46,750 nt of DNA from Thiothrix sp. UBA5583. Lineage in GTDB: Bacteria; Pseudomonadota; Gammaproteobacteria; Thiotrichales; Thiotrichaceae. A program made the position numbers and the translations under genes. Positions within the stretch are counted from its first letter, which is position 1; the number at the start of each line of letters is the position of its first letter. Shown piece after piece: positions 20,597-28,651 of the stretch. The notes beneath the pieces were generated by a model. It made no database searches. It saw only the letters and a list, made by a program, of their open reading frames with translations, and was not told the DNA's origin. The stretch lies in assembly GCA_002425225.1 (NCBI GenBank), contig DILV01000025.1:1-46750 (forward strand). The letters are read 5' to 3'.

Positions 20597-21751
20597 TCAG
20601 CGCAAGCCTGCCAGATCAAACAACTGCCCGTATTCGCGCATGGCGTAACGATCAGTCATGCCCGCAATGAAATCGGCAATCGCCCGCGCCCTGCCCGCTT
20701 CGCCAGTCTCGGCTTCATAACGTTTGGCAAACGCCTGATACTTGGGTGTGAGCAAACGCACATCCTGCATGTAAGCGGCAAACAGCGCCCGTACCACTTG
20801 CCGAGCCCGCCAGGTCATGCGGTAGACGGTCGGGTGGAAATACAGGTTTTCGCGCAAAAACTTCTTCAGCACGTTTTTCTGGCTGCGCATGGTCTCACTG
20901 TAACGTATCAGCGCGGCAGACTGGGCACGCACCTCTGCCAGTGTTTGCACCCCGGAAGCCAGAATGGCGGCCTGGCTGCTTTCGGTCAGGTCAACCACCA
21001 TGCGCCCGATCATGCGGCGCAAGGTTTCGCGGATCAGACGCCGCCCTTGCAGATCAGGGTAAGCCTTCAACACAGCCTCGTATTCGGCAGCAAACACCGG
21101 CACTTCCTGCAACTGCGCCAGCGTGATCAGACCGGAACGCAAACCGTCCTCAATGTCATGGTTATTGTAGGCAATTTCATCTGCCAGATTGGTAAGCTGC
21201 GCCTCCAGCGACGGCTGGGTTTTGTTGAGGAAACGCTCTCCCACATCGCCCAAAGCGGCGGCGTGTTTGACTGCGCAATGCTTGAGGATGCCTTCGCGGG
21301 TTTCAAAGGTCAGGTTAATGCCGGGAAAATCAGCATAGCTATCTTCCAGCACATCCACTACCCGCAGCGATTGCAGGTTGTGTTCAAAACCACCGAACGC
21401 CTTCATGCAGTCGTTGAGTTCGTCCTGCCCGGCATGACCGAACGGGGTGTGGCCGAGATCGTGGGAAAGGGCAATGGCTTCCGTCAGGTCTTCATTCAGA
21501 CCCATGCTGCGGGCAACGGAACGGGCAATCTGTGCCACTTCCAGCGAATGGGTCAGGCGGGTACGGTACAGGTCGCCTTCGTGATTGACGAATACCTGGG
21601 TCTTGTATTCCAGCCGCCGGAATGCCTTGGAATGGATGATACGGTCGCGGTCACGCTGGAACTCACTGCGGTACTGCGGTGCGGCCTCCGGGTAGCGGCG
21701 GCCTTGGCTATGTGCCGGGTCGGCAGCGTAAGGGGCAACGGAATACTGCAT
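20597..21751 (-). CDS. dgt: Deoxyguanosinetriphosphate triphosphohydrolase (dGTPase)
   Basis: HD-superfamily phosphohydrolase of 384 residues that removes triphosphate from dGTP or other dNTPs. Family motifs are RTRLTHSLEVAQIAR (first metal His), ALSHDLGHTPFGH (HD pair at about 97-98) and the N-terminal RDRIIHSKAFRRLEYKTQVF. The length matches type 2 dGTPases rather than the 505-residue E. coli Dgt. The ATG at 21751 overlaps the glycosyltransferase stop by one base (TGATG); a GTG just before it is possible. It is the last gene of the glycosylation operon, which is probably linkage rather than function. Confidence 0.93.
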   Translation of the reverse strand: MQYSVAPYAADPAHSQGRRYPEAAPQYRSEFQRDRDRIIHSKAFRRLEYKTQVFVNHEGDLYRTRLTHSLEVAQIARSVARSMGLNEDLTEAIALSHDLGHTPFGHAGQDELNDCMKAFGGFEHNLQSLRVVDVLEDSYADFPGINLTFETREGILKHCAVKHAAALGDVGERFLNKTQPSLEAQLTNLADEIAYNNHDIEDGLRSGLITLAQLQEVPVFAAEYEAVLKAYPDLQGRRLIRETLRRMIGRMVVDLTESSQAAILASGVQTLAEVRAQSAALIRYSETMRSQKNVLKKFLRENLYFHPTVYRMTWRARQVVRALFAAYMQDVRLLTPKYQAFAKRYEAETGEAGRARAIADFIAGMTDRYAMREYGQLFDLAGLR

Positions 21752-22491
21752 CACATCGCCCGGTGCAGCCAGCGGATTTTCAACAAATCAGTAAACATAC
21801 GGATAGAATCCTTGATCGGGTCTACTTTGGAACCGTCCATGTGTTCCCACTTTACCGCCACTTCCTTGATTTTGAAACCCTGCTTGCGGGCGATGTACAA
21901 ATGCTCCACATCAAAACCGAAGCCGTAAATGCGTTGTAACAGGGCAATACGCTGGGCTGCCTCGCGCCGGTATGCCTTGAAACCGCACTGGGTATCCTTG
22001 ATGCCGGGAACCGACAGGGTGCGTACCGCCATATTGAAGATCAGGCTCATTGCATCCCGATACCACGGTTTCTTTTCCACCTCGGAATCTGTCAGCTTGC
22101 GTGAACCGATCACCACGTCATAACCCTGGGCAAAATACGGCAGCAGCTTTTCGATTTCCTCAATCGGAGTGGAAAGGTCGGCATCGCTGAACAACACGAT
22201 CTCGCCGGAAGCCTTGATCATGCCGCGAGCAATGGAAAAGCCCTTGCCGACGTTCTTGATGTTTTCCATCAACTGGCCTTCGTCCTGCTCCTTGGTTTCC
22301 TTGCCGTAGATGTCGATGAATTTCACCACCTCGGTCGTCAGGTCGCGGCTGCCATCATCTACCACAATGATTTCGCTGCGATACGGCTGGGCAGACAGGT
22401 AATCCTTGACCTTGTAGAGCGAGTCGGCAATGCGGTTTTGCTCGTTGTAGGCCGGGATAATGATGGAAAGGTAAGGTCGTTCGTTATTCAT
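21751..22491 (-). CDS. ALG5-like GT2 glycosyltransferase (polyprenyl-phosphate sugar synthase)
   Basis: A 246-residue GT-A fold family 2 enzyme. Motifs are LSIIIPAYNEQNRI at the N-terminus, VVDDGSRD (Asp45/46), the metal-binding DAD (103-105, SDADLSTPIEE), and the end GFGFDVEHLYIARKQGFKIKEV. The DADLSTP and DTQCGFKAY signatures are those of dolichyl-phosphate beta-glucosyltransferase (ALG5) and bacterial relatives that put a sugar from a nucleotide donor on a polyprenyl phosphate. There is no C-terminal membrane domain. The gene overlaps the SMR gene by 8 bp and dgt by 1 bp. Glucose as the sugar is inferred from ALG5 likeness. Confidence 0.88.
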   Translation of the reverse strand: MNNERPYLSIIIPAYNEQNRIADSLYKVKDYLSAQPYRSEIIVVDDGSRDLTTEVVKFIDIYGKETKEQDEGQLMENIKNVGKGFSIARGMIKASGEIVLFSDADLSTPIEEIEKLLPYFAQGYDVVIGSRKLTDSEVEKKPWYRDAMSLIFNMAVRTLSVPGIKDTQCGFKAYRREAAQRIALLQRIYGFGFDVEHLYIARKQGFKIKEVAVKWEHMDGSKVDPIKDSIRMFTDLLKIRWLHRAM

Positions 22492-22882
22492 GTTGTGTTG
22501 CCTCGGAAGGTTTTGCCACCAGCGCCACGCCCAGCATGATCAGCACAATCCCCGCCGTTTTGCCCAGCGTGAAAGATTCGCCAATCCGGGGCCATAGCAC
22601 CGCGCCCAGATAGACCAGAATGTACCCCAGGCTCAGCAAGGGGTACGCCACGCTCAGCTCAAAATGACCAAGCACATAAATCCACACCAGCATGGCAATG
22701 GCGTAACAGGCAATACCCGCCATCACCCACAGCAGGCCAAACCACTGTTCCACACTGGCATTGCCGTTTTGTAGCGCCGTGAAAAAAACCGTCAGTGCAC
22801 CCAGTGCCTGCATCCCTGCCTTCATGAACAGTTGCCCCAATGCACCGCATACAATCGAAGTCGCCAGCAATAGCCATTTCAT
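22484..22882 (-). CDS. SMR/EamA-like small membrane protein, ArnE/ArnF-like (second of pair)
   Basis: A 132-residue protein with four predicted transmembrane helices. It belongs to the small multidrug resistance fold but lacks the TM1 glutamate needed for drug export; instead TM1 has GALGQLFMKAG, like ArnE/ArnF, the heterodimer that flips undecaprenyl-phosphate-aminoarabinose. Its C-terminal half (ELSVAYPLLSLGYILVYLGAVLW) parallels the partner upstream. The ATG at 22882 overlaps the partner stop (ATGA). A longer in-frame extension upstream is an artefact of the overlap. Probably half of a lipid-sugar flippase; inference from paralogy and neighbours. Confidence 0.85.
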   Translation of the reverse strand: MKWLLLATSIVCGALGQLFMKAGMQALGALTVFFTALQNGNASVEQWFGLLWVMAGIACYAIAMLVWIYVLGHFELSVAYPLLSLGYILVYLGAVLWPRIGESFTLGKTAGIVLIMLGVALVAKPSEATQHE

Positions 22883-23247
22883 GCCACACCCCCTACCAGC
22901 AGCGAAATTCCCAGCATGATCAGGGCAGTACCTAGCCAGCGACGCGGTGGAATAGTTTCGTGGAACAACCAGCGAGCCGCCAGCATCACCACCACATACC
23001 CCAGACTGAGCATCGGGTAGGCAATGCTCAGTTCCAGCCTGCCCAGCACCACCAGCCACAGCAGCAAACCCGTACCAAGGAACAGCACACTCAACACAAT
23101 ATTGCGCCTGAACAATAATTGCAGTTTTGGGCCGGTATGGGTGGCAAAATCGTGGGCAGCCAGTTTCTGGAAAATCTGTGCGGCACTGCTGCACCCGATT
23201 GACACCAGCAGCAATACGACTACCCACAACGGAACATTCTGGATCAT
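22879..23247 (-). CDS. SMR/EamA-like small membrane protein, ArnE/ArnF-like (first of pair)
   Basis: A 122-residue, four-helix membrane protein paralogous to the next gene. TM1 (SIGCSSAAQIFQKLAA) resembles ArnE's AGQLCQKQA segment and has no acidic residue, so proton-coupled drug export is unlikely. The shared motif ELSIAYPMLSLGYVVVMLAA repeats in the partner. Start ATG at 23247 overlaps the GH31 stop by 4 bp, and its own stop overlaps the partner start by 4 bp, so the two are made together and could form a heterodimer. Proposed role: moving the sugar-loaded lipid carrier to the periplasmic face. Confidence 0.85.
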   Translation of the reverse strand: MIQNVPLWVVVLLLVSIGCSSAAQIFQKLAAHDFATHTGPKLQLLFRRNIVLSVLFLGTGLLLWLVVLGRLELSIAYPMLSLGYVVVMLAARWLFHETIPPRRWLGTALIMLGISLLVGGVA

Positions 23248-25766
23248 TGGGACTCCTTCGCCTGATAGCGGATGTCGATGTGATGTGCCTGTGCCGTTGC
23301 CAGTGCAGGCAGGCGCAGCATCAGGGTATTGGAATTGCTGCGTTGCCAGCCGAAACCGGTTTTGTCAGCCGCAGGCAGCGGTTTGCCATCCACCATCACA
23401 GCTTCCACCGTAGCGATTTCTGCCAACACCAATTGGATTTCACGTTGCTGGGGCGCATTGGCATAATCACCCTGGGCAGCTTCGATCCACACTTGCTGAC
23501 GGGCGGTGTCACGTTGCTGGCGGATGCGGGTGCTACGTACCTTGCCCTGCAAATAGGCGGTGGTTTCACCGTCATCTTCGTACAGGGTGAATTCAGTGGG
23601 CTGGCTATGTGGGAAAATCTTCAGTTTCAACAGGGAAGGTTTTTCCATGCTGCCTAGCTTGCGTCCAAAAGCATCGGCACTGTCATTGCCGACCTCCAGC
23701 AAGGGAATGATTGCCCCGGCACGGGCATACAGAGGCAAGCGGTAAACCTTGTGCTGGAACAACGGCACGTCTTCCAGCCATTCACCCTGGCTGCTGCGCC
23801 ATGTGTGGCTGTGGTAATCGAACCATTCACCTTTAGGCAGGTAAACCCGCAAGGTGCGGCTATCCGGGCGGGTTTCGAGTGCTGCCAGCAACTGATCACC
23901 AATCAGTTTCTGCCCACCCATACCGCGCAAATTCGGGTCATGCTCATCCGCCAACACGGCCGGGGCAATGATCGGGTCGCCAGTACGGTGGGCGCGGTGT
24001 GCCAGCGAATAGTAATACGGCAGCAATTCGTAACGCAGCCGTACATTGGCCAGATTGCTGGCAACATCACCCACTTTGTCTGGCGCGGTCTGGTAGCAAT
24101 TGCACACATTATCGGCATGTGGACGTAATGGCAGGTCAATCAGCGCAGCAACGGCAAACCAGCGGGTGTATAGCGTGTTGTAATCCTCCGGCTTGCCATC
24201 AAACGAGTTGCGGTAAAAACCACCCGCATCCGAACCGAAATAATCCACGCCCGACAAACTCATCTGCATTTGCGCATTCAAATGTGACGCCAGGTTTGAC
24301 AGCCGTGCCGGAATATCACCTGACCACATACCAGCACCGTAACGCTGCATTCCTGGCCCGCCCGCCCGTGACAGCATGAAAGGGCGTTGCTGGTTGCCAT
24401 GACGCTGATAGCCATCAAAAATTGAACGATGCCACAACAGGTTATACAGGTTATGCACATCAGCATGACTGGTTTTGCCGGGGGAATAACCGTGGTAAAC
24501 GCCGTCAGCCGCATAATCCATTGGCTCACCCAAATCCGTCCAATGTCCAAGAATGCCCATCTCCACCAGTGGCTGGCGTTTCCAGTCATGCCAAAATGCC
24601 CCGGTTGCCGGGTTGCTCCAGTCGATCATGCCGCCCTTGCCCCACCAGGGTTTTTTCGCCAGATACACCGGCTGCCCATCAGGCTGTTTGACCAGCAAAC
24701 CCTGCTCATGCAGTCTCTGATGCTCCGGCAACCCTTTGCTGATGTAGGATTCCTCAATCAGCATCAAACCCAGATGCTGTTGCTGAGCCAGGGTTTTGAT
24801 CTTGTCGGCGGGGTTGGGGAAATGGCTTTCATCCCAGCTTAGCGCCCCCATGCGGCTGTCGTCTGAATCTTCACGGATACCACCGAACCACTGCAAATCC
24901 AGCACCATGCCATCCAGCGGGAAACCATTTTTCTGCAAGGACTGGCTAACCCCATCCAGTTCCGCCCAGTCATCATAACCGTATTCGGATACCCACAAAC
25001 CAAACAGCTTGCGGTTGGGAACCAGTGGCGTACCCACCAGTTGCATGTAACTACGCCGCAAATCGGCTAGTGAATCCCCAAGGCGCACATAGAAACGCAG
25101 GTCATCACCACCTTTCACCCCCACCTTGAACGGGTCATCATGAAAATCCCAGTTGTGCGGGTAAGGGTTGTCCAGAAACAGCGCCCACGGGGTCATGTCC
25201 TTGCCCAGGGCATACAGGATCGGAAACTGGGTATTACCAACCAGACCGCCTTGCGCATCCACCATCTGGTTGCCGTATTTGCTGCCAGCAACCCGTTTGC
25301 CCCGTTGTAACCAGTCACCATCCAGTTTACCGGGGGCGGGATGCGCCTGCCCCAGACCGTAAAGCTGTTCGGTGTTACCCCTGTCCATAGTCAGGGTTAG
25401 CCAGCCTTGCTCACCTGTACCGGGGCAAACGCGCGTGACAGCACGTTGCTTACCCTTATCGTACACATCCAGACAGAGTGACGTACTATCCAACGTTAGC
25501 TGTACTCGTCCGCTACTGGCGTTTTGTTTGCCTTCCGCCTCCCGCAACTCCATCTGTGCCGGTTTGGTGGCACTGTCCAGCACATAAGGGCTGGCAGGAA
25601 ACGCTGGCTGGTTGCAGGCATCACCCGTGCGGTAACTGGCTCGCAGCCAACCGGATTCCAGCAACTCTGCATCCAGACATTCCTGCCCGTGGCGGGCACT
25701 GAGCATCCCTGCGACAGAGCATTCCGACCACAACAGTAATACAGGCAACAGGTAACAGAGTTTCAT
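23244..25766 (-). CDS. Exported GH31 family glycoside hydrolase
   Basis: An 840-residue protein with a signal peptide (MKLCYLLPVLLLWSECSVAG) and GH31 architecture: N-terminal beta-sandwich (about 30-250), catalytic barrel (about 255-600) and C-terminal beta domains. The catalytic nucleophile is Asp411 in GHWTDLGEP (family signature W-x-D-L/M-x-E) and the acid/base is Asp484 in MWSGD. GH31 enzymes are alpha-glucosidases, alpha-xylosidases, sulfoquinovosidases or transglycosylases; I cannot tell which. It sits inside a glycosyltransferase operon (6 bp after the GT-C gene, 4 bp overlap with the SMR pair), which points to glycan trimming rather than nutrient use. Confidence 0.92.
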   Translation of the reverse strand: MKLCYLLPVLLLWSECSVAGMLSARHGQECLDAELLESGWLRASYRTGDACNQPAFPASPYVLDSATKPAQMELREAEGKQNASSGRVQLTLDSTSLCLDVYDKGKQRAVTRVCPGTGEQGWLTLTMDRGNTEQLYGLGQAHPAPGKLDGDWLQRGKRVAGSKYGNQMVDAQGGLVGNTQFPILYALGKDMTPWALFLDNPYPHNWDFHDDPFKVGVKGGDDLRFYVRLGDSLADLRRSYMQLVGTPLVPNRKLFGLWVSEYGYDDWAELDGVSQSLQKNGFPLDGMVLDLQWFGGIREDSDDSRMGALSWDESHFPNPADKIKTLAQQQHLGLMLIEESYISKGLPEHQRLHEQGLLVKQPDGQPVYLAKKPWWGKGGMIDWSNPATGAFWHDWKRQPLVEMGILGHWTDLGEPMDYAADGVYHGYSPGKTSHADVHNLYNLLWHRSIFDGYQRHGNQQRPFMLSRAGGPGMQRYGAGMWSGDIPARLSNLASHLNAQMQMSLSGVDYFGSDAGGFYRNSFDGKPEDYNTLYTRWFAVAALIDLPLRPHADNVCNCYQTAPDKVGDVASNLANVRLRYELLPYYYSLAHRAHRTGDPIIAPAVLADEHDPNLRGMGGQKLIGDQLLAALETRPDSRTLRVYLPKGEWFDYHSHTWRSSQGEWLEDVPLFQHKVYRLPLYARAGAIIPLLEVGNDSADAFGRKLGSMEKPSLLKLKIFPHSQPTEFTLYEDDGETTAYLQGKVRSTRIRQQRDTARQQVWIEAAQGDYANAPQQREIQLVLAEIATVEAVMVDGKPLPAADKTGFGWQRSNSNTLMLRLPALATAQAHHIDIRYQAKESQ

Positions 25767-25772
25767 GTGGCT

Positions 25773-27302
25773 TTACCTGAACATGGCATCTTCACTGACA
25801 GGAATACGGGGCGGCTGGGTGCTTTTGTACAATTCCAGCACGCCGCTTTTCTGGCGGCTCATCACTTCACTGGTTTGCCAGGGAATTTCGAGTATTTTCT
25901 GGTAGCCACGGCTTTGCATCACGCCGCGCAAGTCGTTGTTGGTTTTGGGTTGAATCAGGTTATTAAGGAAAACGTAAGTGAATTTTTTATCCCACAAGGC
26001 TTCGACGACATCCTTTTTCTCGAATTTGCCATCCATGTTGTTATCCATCCAGCCCAGTTCCTTGATACGATTTTGTGACAATCTGCCGAAAGCGGCATAG
26101 CGCATCAGGTAAGGATCTTCGCTGGCAATAGTCGTGCTCTCGGTCAGTGGCTCAGCTTGGATGGCGTCGATAACCGGGCGGGCATCCGGGTAGCCGTTTT
26201 CCATATCACGCAGGAAAGCGTAATTCAGCCCCACCATACCCAGTACCAACATGGTCGCGACAGCTTGCGCCCCCCAACGAAACTGGTATTGCTGCAATAC
26301 CTGCCACAACAACCATGCCATTGCCGGAATCAGGAACAGCAATGCATATACCAGATGTTTATACAGCGAAATCATGTTCTTGCCCTGCAAGTGATACGCC
26401 GCCAGTGGCAGGGCAAATACCAGCAAAGCGAGTAGGATCCCTATGGTACGATCACGCAGGATGCCTCCCTGATGCTGTCGCCACTGCCAACCCAGTGCTG
26501 CCATCCATAGCAATAGCGGCAAAGCCAGATACAGGGTTTCAACCCACAAGATGTACGCATGATTGGAATTTGCCCCGTGAGTACCCTTGATCTGGATGTT
26601 GTACAAGCCCTGCAACTCCTGCCAGTGCCAGCCGACATAAGTCCCCAGCACCAGTGCCATGCCCAGACCGAACAGCAGCCCCACCAGCGGTGACAACCAC
26701 ACAGCAACCAGTGTCAGCAAGGGCACATACGCCACCACCACGTACTTACTGGTGACAGCCAGTGAACACAGGATGATGGCCGCCAGCAAGGCAAGATAAC
26801 GCGCCTTGCCCACGTGCTGGCAGGCCAGCAGCAACGGAGCCAGTGACAAACTGAAAAACGCCAGGGCAATGATGTCGTAAGTGGCAAACTTGCTGATGAA
26901 AATATGTGCTGCCTGCATCGCCAGCAGTGCCACACCCAGCCAGGCAATTGCAACCGACTGGAACAATTGGCGCACGAAAAAATACACCCCAACCAGCGAC
27001 AACAGGCCAAACAAACCTGCCACTGCCCGCGCCCCCGGCAAACCAGCGACAGCCTCCCCCAGCCCAAGGATGTACCAGTTCAAATTGGAACCAAAAATAT
27101 AGCCATAGGTTGACCATTCCTTGCCTGCCAGCAATTGCTTGCCGACAAACAGGTAATCGTATTCGTCGATATGTCCGCCATTGAAATGCAACAAGAGACG
27201 CATCAAGGCAGAAAACAGCAGACCACCGGCAATGGCGGCGAGAAACAGGTACGGTATCGCAGCAGATCTGGCTGGGGTTGCCACAGGCGTTCTCCCTTGC
27301 AT
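25773..27302 (-). CDS. GT-C membrane glycosyltransferase (GT39/ArnT-like)
   Basis: A 509-residue polytopic membrane protein with about ten or eleven transmembrane helices. The first large periplasmic loop has acidic residues right after TM1 (HFNGGHIDEYDYLFVGKQLL), the position of the catalytic Asp/Glu in GT-C enzymes of the PMT/ArnT group that use polyprenyl-phosphate sugars. A soluble C-terminal part (about 390-509) lies outside the membrane. It is the first gene of the operon; the start codon is ATG at 27302. Donor would be the product of the ALG5-like enzyme; the acceptor (lipid A, O-antigen, glucan or protein) is not apparent. Confidence 0.82.
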   Translation of the reverse strand: MQGRTPVATPARSAAIPYLFLAAIAGGLLFSALMRLLLHFNGGHIDEYDYLFVGKQLLAGKEWSTYGYIFGSNLNWYILGLGEAVAGLPGARAVAGLFGLLSLVGVYFFVRQLFQSVAIAWLGVALLAMQAAHIFISKFATYDIIALAFFSLSLAPLLLACQHVGKARYLALLAAIILCSLAVTSKYVVVAYVPLLTLVAVWLSPLVGLLFGLGMALVLGTYVGWHWQELQGLYNIQIKGTHGANSNHAYILWVETLYLALPLLLWMAALGWQWRQHQGGILRDRTIGILLALLVFALPLAAYHLQGKNMISLYKHLVYALLFLIPAMAWLLWQVLQQYQFRWGAQAVATMLVLGMVGLNYAFLRDMENGYPDARPVIDAIQAEPLTESTTIASEDPYLMRYAAFGRLSQNRIKELGWMDNNMDGKFEKKDVVEALWDKKFTYVFLNNLIQPKTNNDLRGVMQSRGYQKILEIPWQTSEVMSRQKSGVLELYKSTQPPRIPVSEDAMFR

Positions 27303-27421
27303 TATTGTTGTATGCGTAACGGGTTCAGGCAGTACCGTATGGCGGTACGCTCTTGCTTACAGTCATACTAATCAATAGCATTGATGAACGCGATATAAAA
27401 ACTGATAAATGGCGGTACTCC
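27303..27421. promoter_or_regulatory. Divergent promoter region with repeats
   Basis: The 119 bp between the GT-C operon and opgC carry an inverted repeat GTACCG/CGGTAC (27332-27348) and two direct copies of ATGGCGGTAC (27339-27348 and 27409-27418, 70 bp apart). This is a sensible place for a shared regulator of the two divergent units; no regulator can be named. Confidence 0.35.
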
Positions 27422-28651
27422 ATGAGAACAGAAACCCTGCAAGCCCCTCCTTCATTCGCCAGCAGCATCCCCGCAAGCTGGGCATACCCGGAAACTGGTG
27501 CAACACGTGACCTGCGCCTAGACTTTATGCGTGGCTTTGTGATTCCACTATTGTTTGCCAGCCACTTCGAGTTTTTTTCCCTGCTGATGTTTATTGGCTG
27601 GGAACGGATTGGGATGGTGTCAACCGCCGAGATTTTCGTCATCCTGTCCGGCATTGTGGTCGGGATGGTGTACGGCAAGAAAGTCAAACGCGATGGCTTA
27701 TCCGCGACCATGCCGGGGCTGATACAACGTTCGGTGGATTTGTACCGCATCAGTGTGGTGATGATCTTGCTGGTGGCGGCAATCCGCTATGTACCGTGGA
27801 TCGACAGCACAGTCATTACCACTTTTTACGATGCGCCCATCAACCAGACCTACCAGCTTTATCCGCCCCTGGATACCAATTTGTCGACCCTGATCAGCAA
27901 GGCGTTGCTGCTACAAATCGGCCCGCATCAGTTTCAGGTGATTGGCATGTATGTGGTGATGTTCATCCTGATTACACCCTTGGTGTTTTTCATGTTGAGC
28001 AAACAACGGGTGGGACTGCTGCTAGGGATTAGTTGGGTGGTGTATGCCATCCATTATGGTGCGCCATTCCAGTCCTTGCGTCCAACCGGTGCGCAATTTG
28101 AATACGCTTTCCCGATCATGGCCTGGCAGTTGATCTACGTACACGGTATTGTGGTCGGGTATTACAAACAGGAAGTTGTGGCCTTTTTCCGCACTGCGTG
28201 GGGCAAATGGTTGATTATGGCGAGTGTATTGCTATCGTTAGGGTTTATCTTTCTGACATGGAATCATCCATTACCCCACATTTCTCAGTGGATTACCTTG
28301 AACATGATTCCGGCGGAAACATTCAATTACCTTAATAGCGAGTATTTTGCCAAAAACAAGATTGGTATTGGGCGCTTGTTGAATGTAGTGGTGTTGTTCA
28401 TCAGCATTTATGCACTGCTAACCGTGTGCTGGCGACCACTTAACCGTGCTTTGGGGTGGTTTTTCATTCCGTTGGGGCAGGCATCGCTGTATGTGTTTTT
28501 CATCCACGTGTTCCTGCTGCTGGCGATCATGAATACACCACTACCGGGGTACAACGATTTTGGGGTAAACACCGCTGTTCATGCCGGGTTATTGGCACTG
28601 GTGTGGGTAATGGTGAAAAAGGAGTTTTTGTTCCGGTGGATTCCGCATTGA
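27422..28651 (+). CDS. opgC: OpgC-family membrane acyltransferase
   Basis: A 409-residue polytopic protein (about ten transmembrane helices) matching OpgC, which succinylates osmoregulated periplasmic glucans. The family start is visible: RDLRLDFMRGFVIPLLFASHFEF, then ERIGMVSTAEIFVILSGIVVGMVYG, with FIPLGQASLYVFFIHVF near the C-terminus. OpgG and OpgH, which make the glucan backbone, are not in this window. The ATG at 27422 has only a weak GGCGGT upstream; a TTG at 27353 is in frame. It is divergent from the GT-C/GH31 operon, so the acceptor may be the glycan made there. Symbol given for family resemblance. Confidence 0.82.
   Translation: MRTETLQAPPSFASSIPASWAYPETGATRDLRLDFMRGFVIPLLFASHFEFFSLLMFIGWERIGMVSTAEIFVILSGIVVGMVYGKKVKRDGLSATMPGLIQRSVDLYRISVVMILLVAAIRYVPWIDSTVITTFYDAPINQTYQLYPPLDTNLSTLISKALLLQIGPHQFQVIGMYVVMFILITPLVFFMLSKQRVGLLLGISWVVYAIHYGAPFQSLRPTGAQFEYAFPIMAWQLIYVHGIVVGYYKQEVVAFFRTAWGKWLIMASVLLSLGFIFLTWNHPLPHISQWITLNMIPAETFNYLNSEYFAKNKIGIGRLLNVVVLFISIYALLTVCWRPLNRALGWFFIPLGQASLYVFFIHVFLLLAIMNTPLPGYNDFGVNTAVHAGLLALVWVMVKKEFLFRWIPH

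Follow-up and report, generated by a model that had tools for sequence, protein, structure and literature searches.

What does a bacterium do with a sugar-charging glycosyltransferase of family 2 (GT2), two small proteins resembling a lipid flippase, a membrane glycosyltransferase of the GT-C type and a glycoside hydrolase of family 31 (GH31), all encoded side by side? The question is raised by a minus-strand operon of Thiothrix sp. UBA5583 (GenBank contig DILV01000025.1), which we analysed within a stretch of 46,750 nucleotides (the window; contig C11 of a 3.55 Mb Thiothrix genome in 42 contigs, estimated to be 100% complete). We found that the GT-C enzyme, an ArnE-like and an ArnF-like flippase subunit of the small multidrug resistance (SMR) type and the GT2 enzyme form the core of a cassette, a conclusion that is well supported by co-occurrence and homology, and that the GH31 enzyme is a dedicated but optional add-on.

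A four-gene core and its companions

Orthologues of the GT-C protein were detected in 11 of 57 genomes (own genome included; carriers hereafter), and orthologues of the GT2 protein (E <= 1e-40) in exactly the same 11 genomes (hypergeometric probability 5e-12, kinship ignored). Across 63 genomes of the family, GT-C was identified in 12, in all of which GT2 is present together with it, and 11 of the 12 also have the SMR pair at the locus. An earlier note on this DNA had named scattered homologues as the result that would speak against its proposal; when this was tested for GT-C and GT2, no scattering was seen, and the two were always found together in the genomes searched. The grouping of the four genes is found in three genera, so their arrangement is not due to chance. 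It is not rigid either: in G023 the genes are split into two convergent blocks, with the SMR pair and GT2 facing GT-C and GH31.

The GH31 gene behaves differently. Its orthologues (E <= 1e-60) are present in six of the 57 genomes, all of them carriers and all with the gene directly beside GT-C, and in none of the 46 non-carriers, hence our description of it as dedicated but optional. The view of the earlier note that five genes make up one fixed system is not supported, because GH31 is at the locus in only six of the 12 carriers. The gene for dGTP triphosphohydrolase (dgt), which closes the operon in the window, was also considered as a cassette gene and rejected, as it lies far off or on another contig in all seven carrier relatives searched.

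Among the genomes sampled, GT-C was found only in this family. A scan of named genome contigs, which finds close relatives only, returned four loci, namely the Thiothrix metagenome-assembled genome, T. lacustris DSM 21227 and T. fructosivorans ATCC 49748 (72-75% identity) and one Thiotrichaceae metagenome-assembled genome (51%). In a sample of 369 genomes of the class, the own genome was the sole match to a GT-C profile; the searches of the class sample and of the phylum sample used below were a quick first look in which distant relatives may be missed. Two distant GT2 matches (44% and 40% identity) were detected in the same class genomes, and the stretches read around them contained no SMR protein, GT-C or GH31 of the window or E. 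coli type.

These distributions, together with the homologies described below, make it probable that the core encodes a multi-component system for glycosylation in the periplasm, a cassette that is moved or lost as one piece within the family. In the proposed mechanism, the soluble GT2 would take one hexose, most probably glucose, from a nucleotide sugar and join it to undecaprenyl phosphate, giving a beta-linked monophosphate. The ArnE-like/ArnF-like pair, whose flippase subtype is read from its sequence, would flip the sugar lipid, and the GT-C, placed in its superfamily in the same way, would transfer the sugar with inversion to give an alpha-glycoside on a periplasmic acceptor, for which the best candidates are a surface glycan, for instance O-antigen, and a secreted protein. 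The GH31 of roughly half of the carriers, probably a secreted enzyme, may trim the alpha-glucosyl product or move the glucose on, and the divergently encoded OpgC-type acyltransferase (OpgC2) may acylate the same product. GT2 enzymes of this type produce lipid sugars in beta linkage, from which an inverting GT-C makes an alpha-glycoside, the anomer on which GH31 enzymes act.

The positions given in the earlier note are correct for all six genes on the minus strand and for the OpgC gene that diverges from them (Table 1), and Pfam and NCBIfam agree with the protein classes the note had assigned (PF02366, PF01055, PF00535, HD-type dGTPase and PF10129). The gene spacing in the note needs a small correction, as the overlaps of 1-8 bp are in fact 4-8 bp (dgt/GT2 4 bp, GT2/ArnF-like 8 bp, ArnF-like/ArnE-like 4 bp and ArnE-like/GH31 4 bp); the 6 bp gap was recovered between GH31 and GT-C.

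Table 1. Genes of the locus, with positions in the window. Open reading frame lists begin at the first start codon, so that some lengths are overlong
Feature	Position	Strand	Evidence
GT-C glycosyltransferase (PMT/ArnT superfamily), 509 amino acids, first gene of the operon	25773..27302	-	PF02366 E 3.7e-10; 9 hydrophobic segments
GH31 enzyme, 840 amino acids, signal-like hydrophobic N-terminal segment, optional module	23244..25766	-	PF01055 E 1.9e-73
ArnE-like SMR flippase subunit, 122 amino acids, 4 transmembrane segments	22879..23247	-	NCBIfam ArnE 78.1 bits, cut-off 92
ArnF-like SMR flippase subunit, 132 amino acids, 4 transmembrane segments	22484..22882	-	NCBIfam ArnF 94.0 bits, cut-off 99
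GT2 enzyme of polyprenyl-phosphate sugar synthase type, 246 amino acids, no predicted transmembrane segment	21751..22491	-	PF00535
dgt, dGTP triphosphohydrolase, neighbour outside the cassette	20597..21754	-	NF002326 606 bits, cut-off 390
OpgC2, second OpgC-type acyltransferase, divergent	27422..28651	+	OpgC_C PF10129 E 3.8e-49

Flippase and transferases compared with the Arn and Gtr systems

Both small proteins give weak EamA matches in Pfam and are better described by NCBIfam, where the ArnF-like protein matches ArnF (8.3e-27) and the ArnE-like protein matches ArnE (5.5e-22). The same pairing was obtained with the E. coli K-12 proteins (ArnE-like versus ArnE 42% identity, E 6e-16; ArnF-like versus ArnF 30%, E 4.5e-8). 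A GtrA-type flippase was considered and rejected, as none of nine window proteins matched E. coli YfdG/GtrA at E 10 and the SMR pair is related to ArnE and ArnF. The first transmembrane segment of either subunit contains no acidic residue. This agrees with SMR proteins of the lipid type, which, in the portion of a review used here, often lack the central glutamate (PMC9574504).

The ArnF-like profile has matches in 49 of 398 genomes of the phylum, own genome included. Neighbourhoods were fetched for the 20 best-ranked of the other 48 genomes, passing over G641 and G692, and an ArnT and/or ArnC homologue lies nearby in all 20; some of these loci have one SMR gene only, and in four of them (L114, L123, L125 and L126) the SMR gene is absent from the open reading frame list. 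Along with the NCBIfam and E. coli comparisons, these neighbourhoods support the proposal of the earlier note that the genes are a set for charging, flipping and transferring a sugar with an ArnEF-type flippase. They also speak in favour of a rival explanation, that the locus is a disguised or partial Arn pathway placing aminoarabinose on lipid A, since SMR relatives outside the family keep company with Arn-type enzymes.

The two glycosyltransferases bring further points on both sides. The nearest solved proteins to GT2 are dolichol monophosphate mannose synthase (6.5e-19), ArnC (1.6e-14) and sll0501 (7.3e-14), the last of which we take to be GtrB, and no ALG5 was among the matches of this search of PDB sequences. 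GT2 is thus distantly related to ArnC, but against the NCBIfam model of ArnC it scores 70.5 bits where the cut-off is 529, no named family reaches its cut-off, and a simple hydropathy count predicts no transmembrane segment. In GT-C, all 11 aligned rows have the motif H[IM]DEYDYLF after the first hydrophobic segment, with DEYDYLF invariant, and residues 44-201 align with the ArnT profile (hhalign probability 94, E 1.8e-7, 157 columns) with the DE motif in register. The motifs RYA and YFEKP, given for ArnT in the part of PMC5377068 consulted, occur in E. coli ArnT at 34 and 58; in the 11 rows YFEKP is absent and RYA is absent from the first outer loop (the window protein has an unrelated RYA at 401). 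In the own genome, ArnA matched at E <= 1e-20 through its formyltransferase part only (residues 12-291, 29% identity), with no full-length ArnA, and such a formyltransferase-like match is present in some form in 38 of 40 genomes searched. ArnA, ArnB and ArnD are not at the locus, which for ArnB and ArnD was the only place inspected. We therefore reject aminoarabinose as the identity of the cassette, on the grounds of the missing full-length ArnA, the missing ArnT motifs and the low ArnC score of GT2, and regard a hidden Arn pathway as highly improbable.

The cassette nevertheless resembles the Arn system of E. coli K-12 in its GT2 charger, its two-gene SMR flippase and its GT-C with a DE motif in the first outer loop. 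It departs from Arn in lacking the ArnT motifs, in a GT2 devoid of predicted transmembrane helices and in the GH31 of half of its carriers, and its sugar presumably differs from that of Arn. With the Gtr systems (GtrA, GtrB and a serotype-specific GT-C; YfdG-YfdH-YfdI in E. coli K-12) it shares the three-step logic and a strongly conserved GT2 next to a variable GT-C. Among the Thiothrix carriers identity is 93-96% for GT2, the most conserved cassette gene, 72-75% for GT-C and 88-90% for dgt, and serotype-specific Gtr proteins are likewise variable transferases beside a conserved GT2. Unlike Gtr, the flippase is of the SMR/ArnEF type without a GtrA match, GT2 has no predicted C-terminal transmembrane helices, and the scanned neighbours in the window are mostly ordinary genes with no prophage genes among them. 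The interpretation of the earlier note is partly supported: the set with its ArnEF-type flippase holds up, the fixed unit of five genes does not.

A multi-component transmembrane glycosylation system has been described, in the passages of PMC8035078 used here, as a charger of the GT-A fold with a membrane flippase and a GT-C, and by homology a trio of this broad kind is encoded together at our locus. The use of an ArnE-like flippase in a non-Arn system has also been proposed before. For Citrobacter youngae, the portion of PMC11127046 consulted proposes a three-component pentofuranose system with a GT-C and a small flippase, ORF14, that has 48% similarity to ArnE over 46% coverage and is classed there as MATE; in that portion the system has a phosphoribosyl transferase as charger, one flippase gene and no GH31. 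The three-step logic is known; the combination of an ArnE/ArnF pair, a GT2 like dolichol monophosphate mannose synthase and GtrB, a distinct GT-C and a dedicated GH31 did not come up in our searches of open-licence PMC papers.

The GH31 enzyme and the identity of the sugar

The closest solved relative of the GH31 protein is CjAgd31B, an oligosaccharide 4-alpha-glucosyltransferase (2.1e-58), followed at a lower score by glucosidase II of the endoplasmic reticulum (1.4e-46). The catalytic region and the motifs of the glucose subsite are common to CjAgd31B and the window enzyme: D411 aligns with D412 of CjAgd31B and D484 lies in the motif WSGD, residues that we take to be the nucleophile and the acid/base, respectively, from the roles in the family. 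D411, D484, H550 and W409, which stands two positions ahead of the nucleophile, are all unchanged across four aligned GH31 proteins; H550 was equated with the histidine of glucosidase II by the position of the RPH motif, not by direct alignment. According to the section of PMC9491548 consulted, MYORG has lysine in place of the tryptophan and takes galactose. As W409 is retained where this alpha-galactosidase has lysine, the predicted subsite -1 of the window enzyme fits glucose.

The earlier note had seen in this protein a built-in glucosidase that trims the product. Family and glucose motifs hold up, and trimming becomes one option only, because the nearest solved relative is a glucosyltransferase. 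A role like that of UshA in Bacillus, which the excerpt of PMC11898649 used here connects with freeing the lipid carrier, is less likely, since an alpha-linked donor would be needed. CjAgd31B is not known to belong to a lipid-linked glycosylation operon. The likeness to the series ALG5, GT-C and glucosidase II of the endoplasmic reticulum, a pathway in which alpha-glucose is charged, transferred and removed, is a formal analogy, and the window GH31 is closer to CjAgd31B than to glucosidase II.

CjAgd31B works on alpha-1,4-glucans (PMC9061262, in the part consulted), which lends some weight to a second rival, that the GH31 is a common nutritional enzyme which uses alpha-glucans in the periplasm and shares the operon by chance. 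Many members of the large GH31 family are catabolic. We consider this unlikely, as chance would have to account for all six orthologues of the carriers lying beside GT-C and for their absence, at the threshold used, from every non-carrier.

The same association argues for glucose as the sugar, together with W409, the tryptophan that blocks galactose in glucosidase II. A glycosylation cassette for another sugar (mannose, galactose or an amino sugar), with the GH31 acting elsewhere, is somewhat unlikely. It would agree with dolichol monophosphate mannose synthase as the nearest solved relative of GT2, with the failure of GT2 to reach any named NCBIfam cut-off, with the alpha-galactosidase activity of the GH31 relative MYORG and with the six carriers in which GH31 is missing from the locus.

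Several results weigh against the glycosylation cassette as we propose it. The assignment of glucose leans mainly on an enzyme, the GH31, that is absent from half of the carriers, and the activities of all cassette proteins are predicted. By BLASTP, GT-C reaches only E 0.054 with E. coli ArnT, and no PDB sequence matched it at E up to 1. The AlphaFold models are poor for both GT-C (5 sequences, mean pLDDT, or predicted local distance difference test, 53.9) and GH31 (4 sequences, mean pLDDT 46.3); a Foldseek search with the weak GT-C model listed possible relatives in the order oligosaccharyltransferase chains (2.5e-4 to 1.2e-3) and then ArnT (5.4e-3). Both flippase subunits score just under the curated NCBIfam cut-offs, and an antiparallel pair is unproven because charge bias is clear in the ArnE-like subunit (1 against 7) and unclear in the ArnF-like one (2 against 1). 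Finally, G797 (64% complete) has GT-C and GT2 adjacent (L140 6497-8795) with the SMR pair missing at the locus.

OpgC2, candidate acceptors and genomic sites

Class and orientation of the divergent OpgC-type acyltransferase are as the earlier note had them. Its start at TTG 27353 was not retained; ATG 27422 is more likely, as this is where the alignments with homologues begin, and upstream of it there is a non-coding stretch that is conserved. This stretch is common to the window, G013, G008, G012 and G001, and it belongs to OpgC2 and not to the cassette, since it is also found in the cassette-free G013. A palindrome (GTACCG, 5 bases, CGGTAC) at 27332-27348, possibly a regulator site, has a partly conserved counterpart in these four genomes, whether the cassette is present or not.

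OpgC2 is located beside the cassette in four of 12 carriers and is present in 10 of 11 carriers versus six of 46 non-carriers (OpgC2 was assigned in G003, G006, G010 and G011 by its position away from opgG, not by tree, and a fragment in G014 was counted as absent). Within the genus the figures are seven of seven carriers versus six of nine non-carriers (P 0.15, kinship ignored), which is why the link with the cassette is only suggestive. In three genomes of genus g7 (L141, L142 and L143), OpgC2 adjoins a protein of 1024-1059 amino acids without a Pfam match.

An OpgC-type neighbour invites the explanation that the cassette decorates osmoregulated periplasmic glucans, to which OpgC2 would add succinyl groups, and OpgG is indeed found in all 16 Thiothrix genomes, own genome included. 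It is lacking, however, in all four carriers outside the genus that were searched, so that osmoregulated glucan was rejected as a general acceptor. OpgC2 also forms a clade separate from the OpgC encoded beside opgG, to which it is 26-27% identical at the loci compared, and its orthologues (61-63% identity) are present in three carriers without opgG. We regard this explanation as very unlikely; the data suggest instead that the role of an OpgC-like enzyme is not necessarily tied to periplasmic glucans. An extension of the glycosylation cassette that we hold distinctly improbable is an extracytoplasmic glucose cycle of adding and removing, or adding and moving, in which the ArnEF-type flippase and the GT-C would write an alpha-glucosyl mark, the cassette's own GH31 would remove it or pass it on, and OpgC2 would cap it by acylation.

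All four carriers of genus g7 encode, after GT2, a large protein of about 700 amino acids (L035 5382-7496, L036 7035-9215, L037 11460-13568 and L140 8908-11016) and a small one that begins like a lipoprotein; these are a candidate acceptor. GEVED, DUF6923 and DUF4842 were detected in the one of these large proteins that was scanned. In G023, a DUF3131 protein (L034 6676-8169) is encoded directly upstream of GT-C and GH31.

The seven Thiothrix carriers have the cassette in four contexts (G000; G001 with G010; G002; G008 with G012 and G015). G013 has the layout of the window without the cassette, with some 90 bp between the divergently oriented OpgC2 and dgt, and the two genes are in tandem in G007 and G002. 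A tree of the four cassette genes joined G008 with G001 and G010 (support 0.997), in conflict with a single-gene tree of dgt in which G001 and G010 were placed among the non-carriers G013, G004 and G006 (0.998). Transfer and repeated loss of the cassette both fit these results. Directly upstream of dgt in G014 there is an OpgC2-like remnant with an internal stop (L069, G014:C4 about 1283048-1283227), a decayed copy at the same neighbour gene.

Most of what is known about ArnEF-type flippases, which belong to the Arn pathways of polymyxin resistance, concerns the transfer of aminoarabinose. A naturally occurring set with this flippase, seemingly without the aminoarabinose pathway, would reveal whether the flippase recognizes the lipid phosphate or the sugar, and the dedicated GH31 offers a simple handle on the glycosidic linkage. 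Among Thiothrix carriers, the near-frozen GT2 versus the variable GT-C suggests that one fixed donor is delivered to changing acceptors.

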